A DNA stretch of 33,996 bases. It comes from a bacterium (lineage in GTDB: Bacteria > Bacteroidota > Rhodothermia > Rhodothermales > UBA10348). Position numbers and translations under genes: made by a program. This document shows, one piece after another, positions 24,433 to 31,636 of the stretch; within the stretch, counting starts at the first letter, position 1; each line of letters begins with the position of its first letter. Below the pieces are notes generated by a model. That model searched no databases, had not been told where the DNA came from, and worked only from the letters and a program-made list of their open reading frames with translations. The stretch lies in assembly GCA_013204185.1 (NCBI GenBank), contig JABMOI010000010.1:1-33996 (forward strand). Direction: 5' to 3'.

Positions 24433-25593
24433 ATGCTCAAGCTCCTTTCCAACGTACACGTGTTCGCTCCTGAAAACAGAGGGCTACAACATGTATTGGT
24501 TGCGGCTGGCAAGCTTGTGTACATGGGAGCAACCGAGCCAACGCTAGATCCCTGCCTCGAAGTGGAGCGAATTGACTTTGAGGGTGCCCGCTTGGTACCC
24601 GGTTTTATAGATGCACATGCTCATGTAACGGGCGGTGGCGGCGAAGCGGGTTTTGAAACGGCCGTTCCAGCCCCCTTTTTGAGCGAGTTCACCTCGGCAG
24701 GAGTCACTACGGTTGTAGGCTTGCTTGGAACCGACGACCTCGTTCGTTCTACTTCCGCGCTCATTGCTCGGATCAAAGCGCTGCGAGCTGAAGGTTTATC
24801 CGCCTTTGGATATACCGGTGGATATCATTTCCCTCCCACTACACTGACGGGCTCGGTGCGCAGTGACTTGGTACACATCGAAGAACTGATTGCAGTTGGA
24901 GAAATTGCCATTTCGGATCACAGATCGAGCCAACCGACCTTCGAAGAGGTGTTACGCCTTGCAAGCGAAGCCCACGTTGCTGGGTTAATGACGGGCAAGG
25001 CAGGACTTGTTCACTTCCATGTGGGAGATGGAAGTCGCGGACTTGAACTCATTCGCCGCGCCTTAGCCGAATCTGAGATTCCAGCTCGCACGTTTTACCC
25101 AACCCACGTCAACCGTAAAAAAGCCCTGTTTGCAGAAGCTTGCCTTCTAACAAAACAGGGTTGCCCCATTGACGTGACGGCATTTCCTGTTGAAGAGGGC
25201 GAAGACGCGTTTTCGGCTGAAGATGCTTGGACTCTATATCATAAAGAGGGGTACGCCGCCGAGCGAATCACGATTAGCTCTGACGGTGGCGGCTGTCTTC
25301 CCAAGTTTGACGAAAACGGACACATTGCAGGGCTTGATTATGCGAAAGCTTCGGCCCTACCCTTCGCCTTCAAATCGTTATTGGATGCAGGAAATGAAGC
25401 AGAAACCGTATTGCCGGCGTTTACGAGCAATGTGGCAGACATACTCCGACTGAACCAGAAGGGGCGAATAAAAATTGGGGCAGATGCAGATCTAGTTATT
25501 CTAGGCTCAGATCATCTGCCATCGTGGGTCATGGCGCAAGGGACATGGCATGTCAGAAATAATAAAGTCACCGTGAAAGGGACATTTGAATAA
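24433..25593 (+). CDS. iadA: Isoaspartyl dipeptidase
   Basis: A 386-residue amidohydrolase closely resembling E. coli IadA (390 residues). It splits beta-aspartyl dipeptides; in this operon the substrate should be beta-Asp-Arg released from cyanophycin. Readable site residues are His62 and His64 (DAHAHV), Glu71 in GGGGEAG (binds the substrate amino group), Tyr131 in TGGYHFP, His194/His196 region (VHFHVGDG), His225 and Arg228 (PTHVNR) and Asp284 (SSDGGG). The bridging carbamylated Lys162 of E. coli (VKCAISDHRS) is Glu157 here (GEIAISDHRS). The C-terminal VKGTFE also matches E. coli. It is the first gene of the cyanophycin operon; cphB begins 4 bases after its stop or overlaps it. The 242-base spacer upstream holds no recognisable promoter. 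Confidence 0.92.
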   Translation: MLKLLSNVHVFAPENRGLQHVLVAAGKLVYMGATEPTLDPCLEVERIDFEGARLVPGFIDAHAHVTGGGGEAGFETAVPAPFLSEFTSAGVTTVVGLLGTDDLVRSTSALIARIKALRAEGLSAFGYTGGYHFPPTTLTGSVRSDLVHIEELIAVGEIAISDHRSSQPTFEEVLRLASEAHVAGLMTGKAGLVHFHVGDGSRGLELIRRALAESEIPARTFYPTHVNRKKALFAEACLLTKQGCPIDVTAFPVEEGEDAFSAEDAWTLYHKEGYAAERITISSDGGGCLPKFDENGHIAGLDYAKASALPFAFKSLLDAGNEAETVLPAFTSNVADILRLNQKGRIKIGADADLVILGSDHLPSWVMAQGTWHVRNNKVTVKGTFE

Positions 25594-25597
25594 ACAT

Positions 25598-26452
25598 ATG
25601 AACATGCGGCCAGCACTTTCGACCGGAAACGCAAAACGCGGATATCTCATTCCTATTGGCGGAGCCGAGGAAAAAGAGGTTAATCCGGTCATTTTAAAAC
25701 GCTTTGTTGAGCTTTGCGGCGGCAACAAAGCCAATATTGTTGTGATTCCAACCGCTTCTCGGCTTGCAGACACGGGATCTCTTTACGTCGAGTTGTTTGA
25801 AAAAATGGGTGCGGCTAAAGTTGATTTCATGCAACTAAAAAGCCGGAAAGACTGCGAACGTCCCTCCTTTTTAGAACGCCTCGACGACGTCACCGGAATT
25901 TTTATTACGGGAGGCAATCAATTACGCCTCTCCACTATAGTTGGCGGAACGCCGTTTGCAGACAAGCTGCGTTATCTAAACGCACATTATGTGCACGTGG
26001 CGGGGACGTCTGCGGGCGCAGCAATTCTCCCCGAGCATATGATTGCAGGTGGAGACTCAGGGCCAACGCCTACGCAGGCAGGCGTAACGTTAACCCCAGG
26101 CTTAGGCTTTATCAATACGGTCGTGATTGATCAACATTTCAGGGAACGGGACCGACTAGGCCGGCTGCTAACGGCGCTTGCATACAATCCCTATGCATGT
26201 GGAATTGGGATTGACGAAGATACGGCTGCCTTTATTGGCCCGGATGGCGTTCTTGAAGTCGTTGGAAGCGGCGGAATTACGGTAGTCGACCCATCTGAAT
26301 TGGAATACTCTTCCATCGCAGAGATTCGAAAGGGAGAAGTAGTAAGCCTGACCAATGTTCGGTTGCACATTTTGGCAGCCGGGGCGCGGTTCGATACCGT
26401 GAACAGAAAACCGTATGTTGCAGCAGAACTTGAAGCGGAAGAACTTGCATGA
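25598..26452 (+). CDS. cphB: Cyanophycinase
   Basis: A 284-residue S51-family serine exopeptidase that degrades cyanophycin to beta-Asp-Arg dipeptides. The nucleophile is Ser138 in GTSAGAA; the GGNQ loop (Gln107 region) and DQHFRERDRLGRLL are the substrate-binding and catalytic-His elements of the family. Length fits CphB (about 270-290). No signal peptide, so it acts on intracellular granules, unlike secreted CphE. ATG at 25598 is taken as start; TTG at 25586, with AAAGGGA just upstream, would overlap iadA by 8 bases and add four residues. The stop overlaps the cphA start as ATGA, so the two are coupled in translation. Confidence 0.93.
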   Translation: MNMRPALSTGNAKRGYLIPIGGAEEKEVNPVILKRFVELCGGNKANIVVIPTASRLADTGSLYVELFEKMGAAKVDFMQLKSRKDCERPSFLERLDDVTGIFITGGNQLRLSTIVGGTPFADKLRYLNAHYVHVAGTSAGAAILPEHMIAGGDSGPTPTQAGVTLTPGLGFINTVVIDQHFRERDRLGRLLTALAYNPYACGIGIDEDTAAFIGPDGVLEVVGSGGITVVDPSELEYSSIAEIRKGEVVSLTNVRLHILAAGARFDTVNRKPYVAAELEAEELA

Positions 26453-29247
26453 GAATTACATCGACAAACGTGTACGTAGGGCCTAATCTTTATGCCCATT
26501 TCCCAGTAATTCGTCACGTTTTAGAGCTTGGATCGCTCGAAGAATGGCCGACGGCAAAGCTAGGAAAAGCCTTTATCGAGCCTCTGCTCGCTCAGCTTCC
26601 TGGTTTGCAAGAGCATGGATGTTCGTACGGCGAACCGGGTGGTTTCATCCGTAGAATGCGCGAGGATGAAGGCACCTGGATGGGCCACGTTCTTGAACAC
26701 GTTGCGATCGAACTCCAGATTCTGGCAGGTTCTGAAGTCTCATTCGGTAGAACCCGGGGTACTGGAACGCCAGGGGAATACAACATGGTATTTCAATACA
26801 AGCAAAAAGATGTGGGGCTTGAGGCCTCGCGCCTCGGTTTGCAGTTATTGAAACAGTTGCTACCCGAAGAAGTCAATCAGACGCTAACCGAGCCTGCTGA
26901 AGCCGATTTCAATTTTGAAGAAGAAAAAACGGCGTTTATTCGGTTCGCTCAGCGGAAGGAGTTCGGTCCGTCTACTCAGTCTTTGGTAAACGCCGCCGAC
27001 GAGCGGGACATACCGTGGCTGCGATTAAATCAGTACAGCTTGGTTCAATTTGGACATGGCAAGTACCAAAAGCGAATCCAGGCCACCATTACCAGTGAAA
27101 CGCGGCATATTGCGGTTGAAATTTCCTGCGATAAAGAAGACACGCATAAGCTACTCAATGACCTAGGGCTACCTGTCCCGCAGCAAGAAGTGGTGTACAG
27201 TGCACGTCAAGCCACACAAATGGCAAATCGCATTGGGTATCCGGTCGTTGTAAAGCCGTTGAATGTCAACCACGGCCGCGGTGTATCGATCAATCTTACA
27301 TCGGATGAAGCCGTCAAAGATGCCTTCGATCACGCACTAGATGTGGGCACGAGTCGGGCCGTATTGGTTGAAAGTTTTATCACCGGCTATGATCACCGCA
27401 TGTTGGTGGTGAACAACAAGTTAGTGGCTGTTGCCAAGCGTGTCCCGGGACACGTAAAGGGCGATGGAAAAAGCACGATTGCTGAATTGGTCGACATAGT
27501 GAACAGCGACCCACGACGAGGGGTTGGGCATGAAAAAGTGCTCACTAAGCTTGAGTTCGATAAGGCTGCGCATCAGCACATGGCGGATGCCGGTTATACA
27601 AAAGATTCTGTTTTGGCAAATGGAGAAATTCTCTTTCTCCGCTCTACCGCTAACCTCTCGACGGGCGGAACGGCCATTGACCTCACCGATATCGTTCATC
27701 CGGACAACCGAAAAATGGCGGTTAGAGCCATATCTGCTGTAGGCCTGGACGTGGGCGGGGTCGATTTCCTAACCGACGATATTTCGCAGTCCTATAAGGA
27801 TATTGGGGGCGCCATCGTAGAAGTGAATGCAGCTCCTGGATTTAGGATGCACGTAGCCCCCTCGGAAGGAAAGCCTCGTGACGTGGCGGGCGCGGTTATT
27901 GATATGTTATTCCCTCCGGGTACCCCAAAACGCATCCCGATTGCAGGAATTACCGGAACGAACGGGAAGACCACAACAAGCCGCATGTTAGCCCACATTC
28001 TGAAAGGATCTGGGCATACGGTGGGCATGACGTCAACTGACGGCGTGTACATTGACGGTCACTTGACTGTAAAAGGAGACATGACGGGCCCTGTTGCTGC
28101 CCAAATTGTACTCCGCGATCCTTCTGTCGATGTTGCGGTGCTTGAAACTGCGAGAGGCGGCCTCTTGAAACGAGGATTGGGATACAGGAAGTCAAAGGTC
28201 GCGGCGTGTCTCAACATCGCTGCCGATCACTTGGGAATGCGAGGCATCGATACACTCGAGCAGCTAGCCGAGTTGAAACGCATCGTTGTTGAAGTGGCCC
28301 AAGATGTCGCGGTTCTGAACGCCGACGACGAGTTGTGCCTCAAAATGGCCGATTACACCGAGGCCAAACGCCTTTGTTATTTCACGCTGAACTCCAATCA
28401 CGAATTGGTGCGTGAACACATTCGAGCTGGTGGGTTAGCGGTCGTGTTGGAGCAAGGAATTAACGGCCACATGATCACGCTCTTTGACGGCGGGGCGCAC
28501 ATTCCGCTCCTCTGGACACACCTGATTCCAGCGACGCTCGAAGGCAAGGCCATTCATAATGTGCAGAATGCGATGTGCGCTGCTGCCATGGCCCACGCCA
28601 TGGATTGCTCACTTGAAGATATTCGGCTTGGACTTCGCACGTTCGATACGTCGTTTTTCCAAGCTCCTGGCCGCATGAATGTGTTCGACGAACATCCGTT
28701 CAAGGTCATACTAGACTACGCGCACAATCCTGCTGCCGTTGAAGCTATGTGCAGAACGGCTGGGCAATTGACGGTAGCTGGCAAACGTATTGTGGTTCTG
28801 GCAGCTCCAGGCGACCGCCGCGACGAGGATATTGACAATATCGCGCGTTTGGCCGCCCCTCATTTCGATCTGTTCTTGTGCAAAGCGGATGACGACAGAC
28901 GGGGCCGCGGATTCGACGAAGTACCGGCTCGATTGAAGAAGGAGCTCATCGCTTCTGGGGTTGATGAATCCCAGATCATGCTGATTCCGGACGAAGCGAC
29001 ATGCCTGCAGACAGGCTTGCAAATGGCAGGACAAGGGGATTTACTGCTCGTTTTTGGTGACGACACAACCCGCTGCTGGAAGCAAATCATCAATTACAAT
29101 GCAGATGGACCTGCGCCTGCCGAGGCAACTAGCCCGACTCCGGACGCTGCACATCTTCCTAATTTGGAGGACTACGTGTTGGATACAGGGAAGAATCTAG
29201 TGCGCGACGAACGAGGTGTTCGGCTTGCAAAAGAGGAAAATGACTAG
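26449..29247 (+). CDS. cphA: Cyanophycin synthetase
   Basis: A 932-residue three-domain enzyme that builds the Asp backbone and attaches Arg side chains using ATP. The N domain (about 1-160) has GHVLEHVAIELQ with His80, Glu83 and His84, matching the metal-dependent primer-generating site described for CphA1. The ATP-grasp domain (about 165-485, NHGRGVSINL, VESFITGYDHR, VEVNAAPGFRMH) adds Asp. The Mur-ligase domain (about 495-875) has the P-loop GTNGKTTT with Lys507, LETARGGLLKRG and DYAHNPAA, and adds Arg. A Pro/Ala linker and charged tail (RDERGVRLAKEEND) extend it beyond the roughly 875 residues of cyanobacterial enzymes. All three domains look intact, so CphA1 type rather than CphA2. It overlaps cphB by 4 bases and the next gene by 1 base. 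Confidence 0.95.
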   Translation: MRITSTNVYVGPNLYAHFPVIRHVLELGSLEEWPTAKLGKAFIEPLLAQLPGLQEHGCSYGEPGGFIRRMREDEGTWMGHVLEHVAIELQILAGSEVSFGRTRGTGTPGEYNMVFQYKQKDVGLEASRLGLQLLKQLLPEEVNQTLTEPAEADFNFEEEKTAFIRFAQRKEFGPSTQSLVNAADERDIPWLRLNQYSLVQFGHGKYQKRIQATITSETRHIAVEISCDKEDTHKLLNDLGLPVPQQEVVYSARQATQMANRIGYPVVVKPLNVNHGRGVSINLTSDEAVKDAFDHALDVGTSRAVLVESFITGYDHRMLVVNNKLVAVAKRVPGHVKGDGKSTIAELVDIVNSDPRRGVGHEKVLTKLEFDKAAHQHMADAGYTKDSVLANGEILFLRSTANLSTGGTAIDLTDIVHPDNRKMAVRAISAVGLDVGGVDFLTDDISQSYKDIGGAIVEVNAAPGFRMHVAPSEGKPRDVAGAVIDMLFPPGTPKRIPIAGITGTNGKTTTSRMLAHILKGSGHTVGMTSTDGVYIDGHLTVKGDMTGPVAAQIVLRDPSVDVAVLETARGGLLKRGLGYRKSKVAACLNIAADHLGMRGIDTLEQLAELKRIVVEVAQDVAVLNADDELCLKMADYTEAKRLCYFTLNSNHELVREHIRAGGLAVVLEQGINGHMITLFDGGAHIPLLWTHLIPATLEGKAIHNVQNAMCAAAMAHAMDCSLEDIRLGLRTFDTSFFQAPGRMNVFDEHPFKVILDYAHNPAAVEAMCRTAGQLTVAGKRIVVLAAPGDRRDEDIDNIARLAAPHFDLFLCKADDDRRGRGFDEVPARLKKELIASGVDESQIMLIPDEATCLQTGLQMAGQGDLLLVFGDDTTRCWKQIINYNADGPAPAEATSPTPDAAHLPNLEDYVLDTGKNLVRDERGVRLAKEEND

Positions 29248-30917
29248 TGGAAGTGCTCGACTCGAGACGGCTAACCGGACCTAACCTGGTCTGGGACCAT
29301 CCAGGAGCTCTTTTGGAAGTGACGTTTGCTGATTCTCATTCCGCGGTTATTGACCGTTGGAAGCAGGAAATCGTGGTTTTGCGGGAGGCTGCTGGGTTAC
29401 CGGATTTCGGCTTGGAGGTTAAAACCAGACGGGGCGGTGCGTGGCTCGTTGTGGGCGGCCCCATCGACCAGCTCTACGGCCTAACTGATTTGAACGAATT
29501 GGCGTGGAATCGGGCTTCGGGCTTGGAGGGCTCTGAGCTGACTTTTGAGACCATTCTTGAACAGCTTCGTGAGGAAGCGAATCCCAAGCTGTTGGCCCTT
29601 CAAGAAGCAGCCGACAGACACAACGTCACCTTTCTTTGGGACGACGATGAGGTTTCGCTTGGAATGGGCGGCGCGTCTTCGCGGTGGCCGGTCACTGACC
29701 TTCCTCTCCCAGAAGAACTAGATTGGACTCGTTTTGCAGATATTCCCGTTGCGGTGGTTACCGGAACGAATGGCAAGTCGACCAATGTGCGTTTGTTAGG
29801 TCATATTTCGGCCAGCGCTGGATGGATGCACGGAACAACGTCTACCGACTGGATTCGGGTCGGAAACGAAGTTGTGGAGCGCGGCGATTACTCAGGGCCA
29901 GGTGGCGCGAGAACACTTCTGAGAGACCCACGAGTTGAAATTGCTTTTTTGGAGACGGCCAGGGGCGGTTTACTGAGGCGCGGAACGGGCGTTAATCGGG
30001 CCGACGTGGCACTGGTTACCAACGTGGCCGAAGACCATATGGGGCAGTATGGCATTCATACAGTTGAGGACTTGGCCGAGGCCAAGCTCGTGGTGGCACG
30101 GCTTGTGGAAGAAGACGGTGTGCTCATTTTAAACGCGGACGACCTGGTTCTCGTGGAGATGCATAAGGCCGCTTCCCCCAACCGTTTGTGCTGGTTTTCG
30201 GTTTTGGGAGATAGTCCGGTGGTCCTTGGTCACGTTGCCGCTGGTGGCACGGCGTACTGCGTCCTGGACGGAAACATTGTTCGGCTGACTCCAGACGGAG
30301 CTGAGGCCATTTCCGCGATCGACGAAATTCCAATTACGCTGGGGGGTAAGGCTACCTATAACGTTGCCAATTGCGTCTCGGCGGCCGCCGTAGCGATTGA
30401 ACTCGGAATCCCTCTAGATAATGTGCGGCAAGGACTTACGTCGTTTGACAACAATCCTGAAACGAACCCCGGCAGAAGCAACTACTTCCAGTTGGAGGGT
30501 CTAACGGTTCTTCTTGATTACGCGCACAACGTACACGGATTGGATGCAATCTTGGATACGACCGCCAAATTGAATGCAAAACGTCGCATCTTAACCATTT
30601 CTACCGCCGGAGACCGAACAGAGCACGAGATTCGACAACTCGCTTCCCATGCCGTGCACTCAGGGGTTGAAGAAATCATGGTTTCAGACTGCCTTGGATA
30701 CGAAAGAGAGTTAGGAAAAGGGGGCGTTCCTCGCATATTGATGAACGAGTTTCGTCGCTTAGGGAAGGAAGTAGCGCTGTTCGATAGCGAGCTTGAAAGC
30801 GTAGAAGCCGCGTTTCAGCAGGCCCAGCCCGGCGATCTGCTTATCTTGTTAGTGAAGGCCGAGCGGAGCGAGGCCTTAGGGGTCATTCAACGTGAAATGG
30901 CCTTTCGTTCATCTTAA
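29247..30917 (+). CDS. CphA-related Mur ligase lacking the ATP-grasp domain
   Basis: A 556-residue protein starting at GTG 29247, whose first base is the last base of the cphA stop (TAGTG); GAGG lies upstream. Residues about 1-160 resemble a CphA N domain (SRRLTGPNLVWDHPGALLEV) but lack the HxxEH site. Residues about 165-556 are a complete Mur-ligase module: GTNGKST (Lys177), YSGPGGARTLLRDP, FLETARGGLLRRG, NVAEDHMGQYG, LDYAHNVHGLDA and AGDRTEHEI. These parallel the CphA C-terminal domain, so it is probably a paralogue with the ATP-grasp domain missing. It could ligate an amino acid to Asp side chains or to the polymer, act as an accessory subunit, or make another product. No function is proven. 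The intact catalytic motifs argue against decay. Confidence 0.85.
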   Translation: MEVLDSRRLTGPNLVWDHPGALLEVTFADSHSAVIDRWKQEIVVLREAAGLPDFGLEVKTRRGGAWLVVGGPIDQLYGLTDLNELAWNRASGLEGSELTFETILEQLREEANPKLLALQEAADRHNVTFLWDDDEVSLGMGGASSRWPVTDLPLPEELDWTRFADIPVAVVTGTNGKSTNVRLLGHISASAGWMHGTTSTDWIRVGNEVVERGDYSGPGGARTLLRDPRVEIAFLETARGGLLRRGTGVNRADVALVTNVAEDHMGQYGIHTVEDLAEAKLVVARLVEEDGVLILNADDLVLVEMHKAASPNRLCWFSVLGDSPVVLGHVAAGGTAYCVLDGNIVRLTPDGAEAISAIDEIPITLGGKATYNVANCVSAAAVAIELGIPLDNVRQGLTSFDNNPETNPGRSNYFQLEGLTVLLDYAHNVHGLDAILDTTAKLNAKRRILTISTAGDRTEHEIRQLASHAVHSGVEEIMVSDCLGYERELGKGGVPRILMNEFRRLGKEVALFDSELESVEAAFQQAQPGDLLILLVKAERSEALGVIQREMAFRSS

Positions 30918-30934
30918 ATCAGTAGGTTCTTGTG

Positions 30935-31636
30935 ATGACGTGGATTTCGCCCTTCAAAAGTTCTCTGGCTGCATGGACGTGGAGCCCATCTATTCTACTC
31001 ATCCTAATTGCAGTTGGGGTTGCTTCGTGCATGAATGATCAGCCATTGGTTCGCCTTGCGGACGTAGACGCCTCCATTACGCAGGATCCGAAGTATTTCG
31101 GAAGTGACAACTTCATGGGCAGGCCTATTCGAGGCTACAACGCTCAGGAGGTTTGGCTTTCATTGCCCGCCGCCGAGGCGTTGGCCGCAGCCCAACAATT
31201 GGCGATTTCCGAGTGTTTATCCTTGCATGTGTACGACGGCTATAGACCCCAGCGCGCCGTGGACCATTTCGTGGAATGGGGAGCAGACCTAGCGGATTCC
31301 TTGAACAAAGCGATCTTCTATCCAGATGTCCCAAAAGAAGAGCTTTTTGATCGCGGTTATATAGCCGCAAAATCAGGCCATAGCCGTGGAAGCACCATGG
31401 ACCTTACCGTGACAAAAGATGGAATCCCGATTGACATGGGCACCCCGTTCGATTTTTTCGATGAGCTTTCCCACACGGAAAACCCGGCAATTCAAGGCGA
31501 AGCGATGCAGCATCGCATGATCCTCAAATCCATCATGGAACGATCAGGCTTTTCGAACTACGTGAACGAATGGTGGCACTACACATTAAACGATGAGCCA
31601 TTCCCTGACACGTATTTCGATATCCCAATCGAATAA
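30935..31636 (+). CDS. VanX/DdpX-like D-Ala-D-Ala dipeptidase lipoprotein
   Basis: A 233-residue M15D zinc dipeptidase. Ligands and catalytic residues can be matched to VanX: Arg104 (YDGYRPQ), His149 and Asp156 (SGHSRGSTMDLT), Glu212 and His215 (NEWWHYTL). Unlike cytoplasmic VanX it has a membrane leader (about 18-31) ending in the lipobox GVASC, with Cys32, so it should be a lipoprotein facing the periplasm. ATG 30935 is used, with AGTAGG 8 bases upstream; GTG 30932 is immediately before it. It follows the Mur-ligase gene by 17 bases, so it seems to be in the cyanophycin operon. Relatives cleave D-Ala-D-Ala in peptidoglycan recycling; a role on another dipeptide is possible. Confidence 0.85.
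   Translation: MTWISPFKSSLAAWTWSPSILLILIAVGVASCMNDQPLVRLADVDASITQDPKYFGSDNFMGRPIRGYNAQEVWLSLPAAEALAAAQQLAISECLSLHVYDGYRPQRAVDHFVEWGADLADSLNKAIFYPDVPKEELFDRGYIAAKSGHSRGSTMDLTVTKDGIPIDMGTPFDFFDELSHTENPAIQGEAMQHRMILKSIMERSGFSNYVNEWWHYTLNDEPFPDTYFDIPIE

Follow-up and report, generated by a model that had tools for sequence, protein, structure and literature searches.

A CphA-like Mur ligase without the ATP-grasp core accompanies a clade of tailed cyanophycin synthetases

CphA is regarded as performing both the backbone and the side-chain step of cyanophycin synthesis in one protein, and its zinc site cuts primers from existing polymer. Here we describe a second, reduced CphA relative encoded directly behind cphA in a Rhodothermales genome. 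This protein, which we name MurL, has a CphA-type N domain and a Mur ligase module without the ATP-grasp core, conserves the Mur catalytic residues, and both co-occurs and is co-inherited with CphAs that carry a conserved C-terminal tail. It mirrors the known reduced enzyme CphA2, and we found no description of it in the open-access literature. Based on these data, we propose that MurL is a dedicated side-chain ligase that works with the tailed CphA, probably docked on the tail, and acts on an Asp-ending chain; we give this reading a probability of about 0.5. One CphA clade across two phyla retains a second, backbone-less side-chain ligase together with an Asp-ending C-terminal peptide. This makes it testable how a chain starts when polymer is absent and whether the composition of natural cyanophycin is varied by a dedicated enzyme. 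MurL could also become a tool for making modified cyanophycin.

A CphA-like gene in a cyanophycin operon

The sequence analysed (the window) is 33,996 nucleotides long and contains the following genes.

24433..25593, plus strand: iadA, isoaspartyl dipeptidase (TIGR01975, 369.6 bits; cut-off 331.25)
25586..26452, plus strand: cphB, intracellular cyanophycinase (TIGR02069, 259.2 bits; cut-off 126.6)
26449..29247, plus strand: cphA, complete cyanophycin synthetase of 932 amino acids with N, G and M domains and the HxxEH motif as HVLEH (TIGR02068, 1134.6 bits; cut-off 850; PF18921 at residues 24-138)
29197..29244, plus strand: C-terminal peptide of CphA, LVRDERGVRLAKEEND, residues 917-932, typical of MurL-partnered CphAs
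29247..30917, plus strand: murL (name used here), probable CphA-derived N-M ligase of 556 amino acids, GTG start

The order iadA-cphB-cphA-murL lies on one strand with neighbours overlapping or touching. Because the cphA stop codon TAG occupies 29245-29247, the murL GTG begins on its last base and the two genes overlap by one base, just as the original prediction had read it; the sequence aaagaggaaa lies immediately upstream of the GTG. A scan for sigma-70 promoters found none, a result that is uninformative if the lineage relies on other promoter types, and PADLOC returned no match. MurL is currently annotated merely as a “Mur ligase family protein”, and in open-access text we found no paper naming the family. 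A published survey of clusters for cyanophycin metabolism deals with cphA1, cyanophycinase, iadA and iaaA; in the passages considered, it makes no mention of murL (PMC10206079). The next gene, at 30932-31636 and 14 bases past murL, encodes an M15 D-Ala-D-Ala dipeptidase-like protein. It was dropped as a candidate partner since it adjoins MurL only within the window's own family.

Domain architecture of MurL

We divide MurL into three parts.

29247..29543, plus strand: residues 1-99, CphA N-type domain (beta-beta-alpha-beta-beta-alpha) without HxxEH (AF2, Foldseek, hhalign)
29544..29696, plus strand: residues ~100-150, ATP-grasp Gcore stub (FETILEQLREEANPKLLALQEAADRHNVTFLWDDDEVSLGMG), with the remainder of the ATP-grasp domain apparently deleted (aligns with CphA ..LGPSTxSIVxAAxxRxIPxxRLxxxSLVQFGxG)
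29736..30914, plus strand: residues 164-556, Mur ligase module, Mcore and Mlid (Pfam, NCBIfam, PDB sequence matches, alignment)

The Mur module is evident from direct sequence comparison. Pfam reports Mur_ligase_M (171-383) and Mur_ligase_C (409-534) and nothing else, the nearest solved sequences are CphA1s that match only from residue 163-165 onward, and the CphA model TIGR02068 aligns over profile positions 477-850 of 862 (358.2 bits; cut-off 850). For the N-terminal part, a phmmer search of residues 1-168 against PDB sequences gave chance matches only, and the Pfam N-domain model PF18921 matched none of 24 family members. The likeness to the CphA N domain is therefore visible only by profile-profile and fold comparison. 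Using a profile of 35 MurLs against one of 62 diverse CphAs, we find that the MurL N part is collinear with the CphA N domain and the start of the G domain (score 32.3, E 2.6e-4), a score reached by none of 150 column shuffles (best 23.8). It was the diverse CphA set, rather than close CphAs alone, that resolved this comparison; a global hhalign of the full proteins was discarded, as it misplaced the N part against the deletion. Structure prediction points the same way. The AF2 model of residues 1-164 alone (pLDDT 94.1) matches 12 chains in Foldseek at E<=5.5e-5, all of them CphA1 or CphA2 (best E 2.7e-6), with the next match at 7e-3. This fold match spans ~206 CphA columns, and residues ~100-150 align with the first ~45 residues of the CphA G domain, which starts at residue 162 in TeCphA1 (PMC9427784). 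The whole-protein model (14 sequences; pLDDT 91.3, pTM 0.89) aligns with TeCphA1 along its length at a TMq of 0.84, compared with ~0.5 for MurE structures.

Because both the profile comparison and the fold of residues 1-164 match CphAs, the N part is CphA-derived, and the CphA ancestry first suggested from the sequence is supported for both halves of the protein. The original prediction was right that no catalytic ATP-grasp core is present, with no ATP-grasp Pfam match in MurL, and that HxxEH is gone, the motif being wholly absent from the N domain of the aligned members. It erred in having the N part run straight into the Mur module: the stub of ~50 residues, which it overlooked, lies between them, so that the start of the G domain is retained. 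Since this stub is kept, the simplest account of murL is a cphA-like gene that lost the ATP-grasp core through an internal deletion. As the tree is weakly rooted, the reverse history, in which an N-M ancestor later gained the ATP-grasp domain, is a less simple alternative. The tree tentatively places MurL sister to all CphAs, a position obtained with a “quick” method and very long outgroup branches (5.46 and 3.22).

These features separate MurL from its better-known relatives. Set against CphA1, it has the N domain and an M domain with catalytic residues, and lacks the G domain, the Cx19HxxEH site and a TIGR02068 score at the cut-off. Nor is it a known peptidoglycan or folate ligase, an outcome that would have undone the original prediction: it scores 69 bits against the MurE model TIGR01085 (cut-off 257.3), with an N part that is CphA-like and not of the UDP-MurNAc type, and 36.1 against the FolC model TIGR01499 (cut-off 162.65). 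A separate MurE (475.9 bits) is encoded elsewhere in the same genome. We propose to define the MurL family by an N domain, a G stub and an M domain, together with a tailed CphA encoded in the same genome, all of which are found here.

A putative side-chain ligase with an altered substrate site

The Mur catalytic residues of MurL are located as follows.

29760..29783, plus strand: P-loop TGTNGKST, residues 172-179, K177 invariant
30033..30038, plus strand: D263-H264, the equivalent of SuCphA1 D585-H586, invariant
30516..30530, plus strand: DYAHN motif, residues 424-428, with D424, H427 and N428 invariant

Across 34 MurLs, K177, T179, E236, D263-H264, K280, N375, R410, D424, H427, N428, D456-R457 and R487 are invariant, and the P-loop and DYAHN motifs are intact as originally read; two divergent members carry GSNGK and still have a complete P-loop. 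In TeCphA1, K499 and E558 hold the equivalent catalytic roles and the P-loop Lys is required (PMC9427784), and the M-dead mutant of SuCphA1 is D585A H586A (PMC9262961). Other positions differ from CphA. R791 and D794 (GDRRDED), invariant or nearly so across CphAs, are changed in MurL, which has its own near-invariant residues R222, R245 and N407 and a two-residue insertion that precedes the amino-acid loop's conserved Arg; R487 and the RGR-type loop are partly retained. From this pattern we infer that MurL is active with an altered substrate site. Given the loss of R791/D794 and the changes in the acceptor and amino-acid loops, a substrate unlike that of CphA's own M domain seems more likely than a plain duplicate of that activity.

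In CphA, the G domain adds Asp at the chain C-terminus and the M domain adds Arg to the side chain of that Asp (PMC9262961). Judged by its domains, MurL would be capable of the side-chain step only, which makes an Asp-ending chain its most likely acceptor, either the growing cyanophycin chain or, as a bolder option, the CphA tail. In the proposed reaction, the C-terminal Asp of the chain would lie in the cleft between the N and M domains of MurL, ATP would phosphorylate its side-chain carboxylate, and an amino acid would be joined to the activated Asp with no extension of the backbone. The conserved C-terminal peptide of CphA would probably tether MurL to CphA during this reaction. One point against a dedicated ligase is that the M domain is complete in partnered CphAs, so that Arg addition does not need MurL.

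MurL could instead be a repair or finishing enzyme that puts Arg back on Asp residues of cyanophycin lacking it, at a distance from the complex that makes the polymer; its chemistry would then be that of the CphA M domain. Its catalytic residues are the same as those of that domain, R487 and the RGR-type loop are in part retained, and the N domain loosely binds polymer in CphA (PMC9262961). We nevertheless consider Arg repair unlikely, because the loss of R791/D794, the presence of R245 and N407 and the two-residue insertion suggest a changed substrate, and because CphA already has such an activity.

The C-terminal tail of partnered CphAs

CphAs that are partnered with MurL group in a single clade (SH-aLRT 99) and exceed other CphAs in length by ~50 residues. 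Their extra sequence consists of a variable linker followed by a conserved peptide with the consensus VRDERGVRLAxEExD, which in the window is RDERGVRLAKEEND with D932 as the terminal residue. Between the DERGVR core and the C-terminus lie 7-10 residues. A terminal Asp is found in 38 of 39 distinct tails, whereas tail and terminal Asp are both absent from all 57 unpartnered CphAs. The motif is present as a single copy in the window's genome, and the tail is retained in G079, where MurL is not adjacent to cphA. The exception to the terminal Asp is the CphA of G035, whose tail is without the final EExD; its partner L039 is the most divergent MurL and is without the WDDD motif. The divergent MurLs L091-L093 are also without WDDD, yet their CphAs retain the final Asp, so there is no clean co-variation between WDDD and the tail end and L039 is a single case. 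Because tail and MurL are confined to one clade, their link is an association and not proof of interaction; each may have arisen once at the base of that clade, which would not amount to many independent events. In a separate observation, the otherwise gene-poor DNA behind cphA in G082 (L041, 2987-3175) encodes the tail peptide a second time (GQRLVRDERGVPLVSDEKAD).

The tail, which the original prediction also overlooked, adds an acceptor or docking hypothesis to it. We infer that the tail contacts MurL, and a role as dock is compatible with a role as acceptor. The bolder version is self-priming, in which MurL charges the side chain of the terminal Asp of CphA, CphA elongates its own or a neighbour's tail, and the polymer starts on protein. 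If true, MurL and the CphA tail would form a protein-primer system with a covalent starter, a peptide-polymer counterpart of glycogenin. The chemistry is suitable: CphA extends the chain C-terminus, the M reaction targets a C-terminal Asp, and the minimal cyanophycin primer is (beta-Asp-Arg)-Asp (PMC9262961). Of the CphA activities, MurL has precisely the M reaction, with neither the backbone domain nor HxxEH, and the tail Asp is fixed to the C-terminus despite the variable spacing. Against this, partnered CphAs retain HxxEH and may make primers from polymer, the terminal Asp could equally serve docking, and the partner of L039 has lost its terminal Asp yet MurL is still there. We therefore hold self-priming to be rather improbable.

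Distribution and linkage to cphA

To place MurL among bacteria we searched ~1,220 genomes for MurL and CphA. Within the Rhodothermales, 22 genomes gave a match and 20 of them have both genes; the exceptions are G082 (88% complete), with cphA only, and G004, with a MurL fragment only. This fragment (L040, 1504-2422) is a MurL C-terminal part (303-550) joined directly to the end of an IadA piece made up of its first 70 residues, reflecting a deletion of the operon middle or a misassembly. Among 345 genomes from across the Bacteroidota, CphA occurs in 44 and MurL in just five, all Rhodothermales and all with cphA. In the class of a Woeseiaceae genome (369 genomes) the counts are 18 for CphA and 8 for MurL, and in its phylum (398 genomes) 29 and 5, each MurL again with cphA. 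The groups with MurL are Rhodothermales, Gammaproteobacteria and Alphaproteobacteria, and the order cphB-cphA-“Mur ligase family protein” is found on plasmids of Ruegeria, of Shinella and in a record under the name Roseateles. In the whole survey, the only MurLs seen without cphA were the G004 fragment and copies at the edges of contigs. Where both genes share a stretch, they lie on the same strand with a gap of -1 to ~96 bp, apart from G034 (~1.1 kb, one ORF between) and G079, in which MurL is elsewhere on the contig. The original prediction would have been refuted by an unrelated N part or by homologs mainly away from cphA; neither was found, and MurL almost always sits directly behind its partner. 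Phages yielded no MurL and one CphA-like M-domain match, in a human faecal “Bacteriophage sp.” record of 9.9 kb (MT838013.1, 6722-7870; 39.5% identity to MurL) that may be bacterial DNA.

MurL and CphA have been inherited together: their pairwise M-domain identities correlate (r = 0.97), with mean identities of 44% for MurL and 63% for CphA. The faster divergence of MurL is also compatible with a structural role or with relaxed constraint, and it is one reason to consider that MurL is a non-catalytic partner that, docked on the tail of CphA, brings in polymer or has a regulatory or stabilising effect on the synthetase. The conserved tail behind a variable linker does resemble a docking peptide. 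All Mur catalytic residues are invariant even in very divergent members from two phyla, which is unexpected for a pseudo-enzyme, and we regard a purely non-catalytic role as marginally less probable still than self-priming. That MurL is the remnant of a tandem cphA, degenerating since the ATP-grasp core was lost, as suggested by a tandem or broken second cphA on a Deinococcus plasmid, is very improbable given the long-term conservation of MurL: every complete copy has an open reading frame, and one architecture with invariant catalytic residues extends from Rhodothermales to Alphaproteobacteria.

Comparison with known systems

MurL resembles CphA1 (TIGR02068; 7LG5, 7WAE) in its N fold, first ATP-grasp piece, Mur module, catalytic residues and operon. 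It differs in lacking the ATP-grasp core, R791/D794 and HxxEH, the Cx19HxxEH zinc site being present in 83% of CphA1 (PMC9262961), and in having the extra residues R222, R245 and N407. Like MurL, CphA2 (8FXH/8FXI) is a CphA relative reduced to a single working active site, and its N domain is among the MurL fold matches. CphA2 uses its G domain and has a reduced M domain; MurL is the mirror image, with M retained and G lost. CphA2 polymerises beta-Asp-Arg dipeptides at its single site (PMC10206079). With MurE and other Mur ligases, MurL shares the central and C-terminal ligase domains and the catalytic residues, whereas its N part is not a UDP-MurNAc-binding domain, its fold is clearly closer to CphA and its scores are far below the family cut-offs.

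A second CphA-like gene in a cyanophycin locus also occurs in the tandem cphA pairs of Betaproteobacteria and Deinococcus. The tandem cphAs encode full-length CphAs with ATP-grasp, unlike MurL, which is without this domain. A distinct group of CphAs (L097-L101) has neither MurL nor the tail. On a plasmid of Deinococcus sp. KNUC1210 (L149, 8008-10507), a second Mur-ligase/CphA-like gene appears as two ORFs behind cphA-iaaA-cphB and may be a broken tandem cphA.
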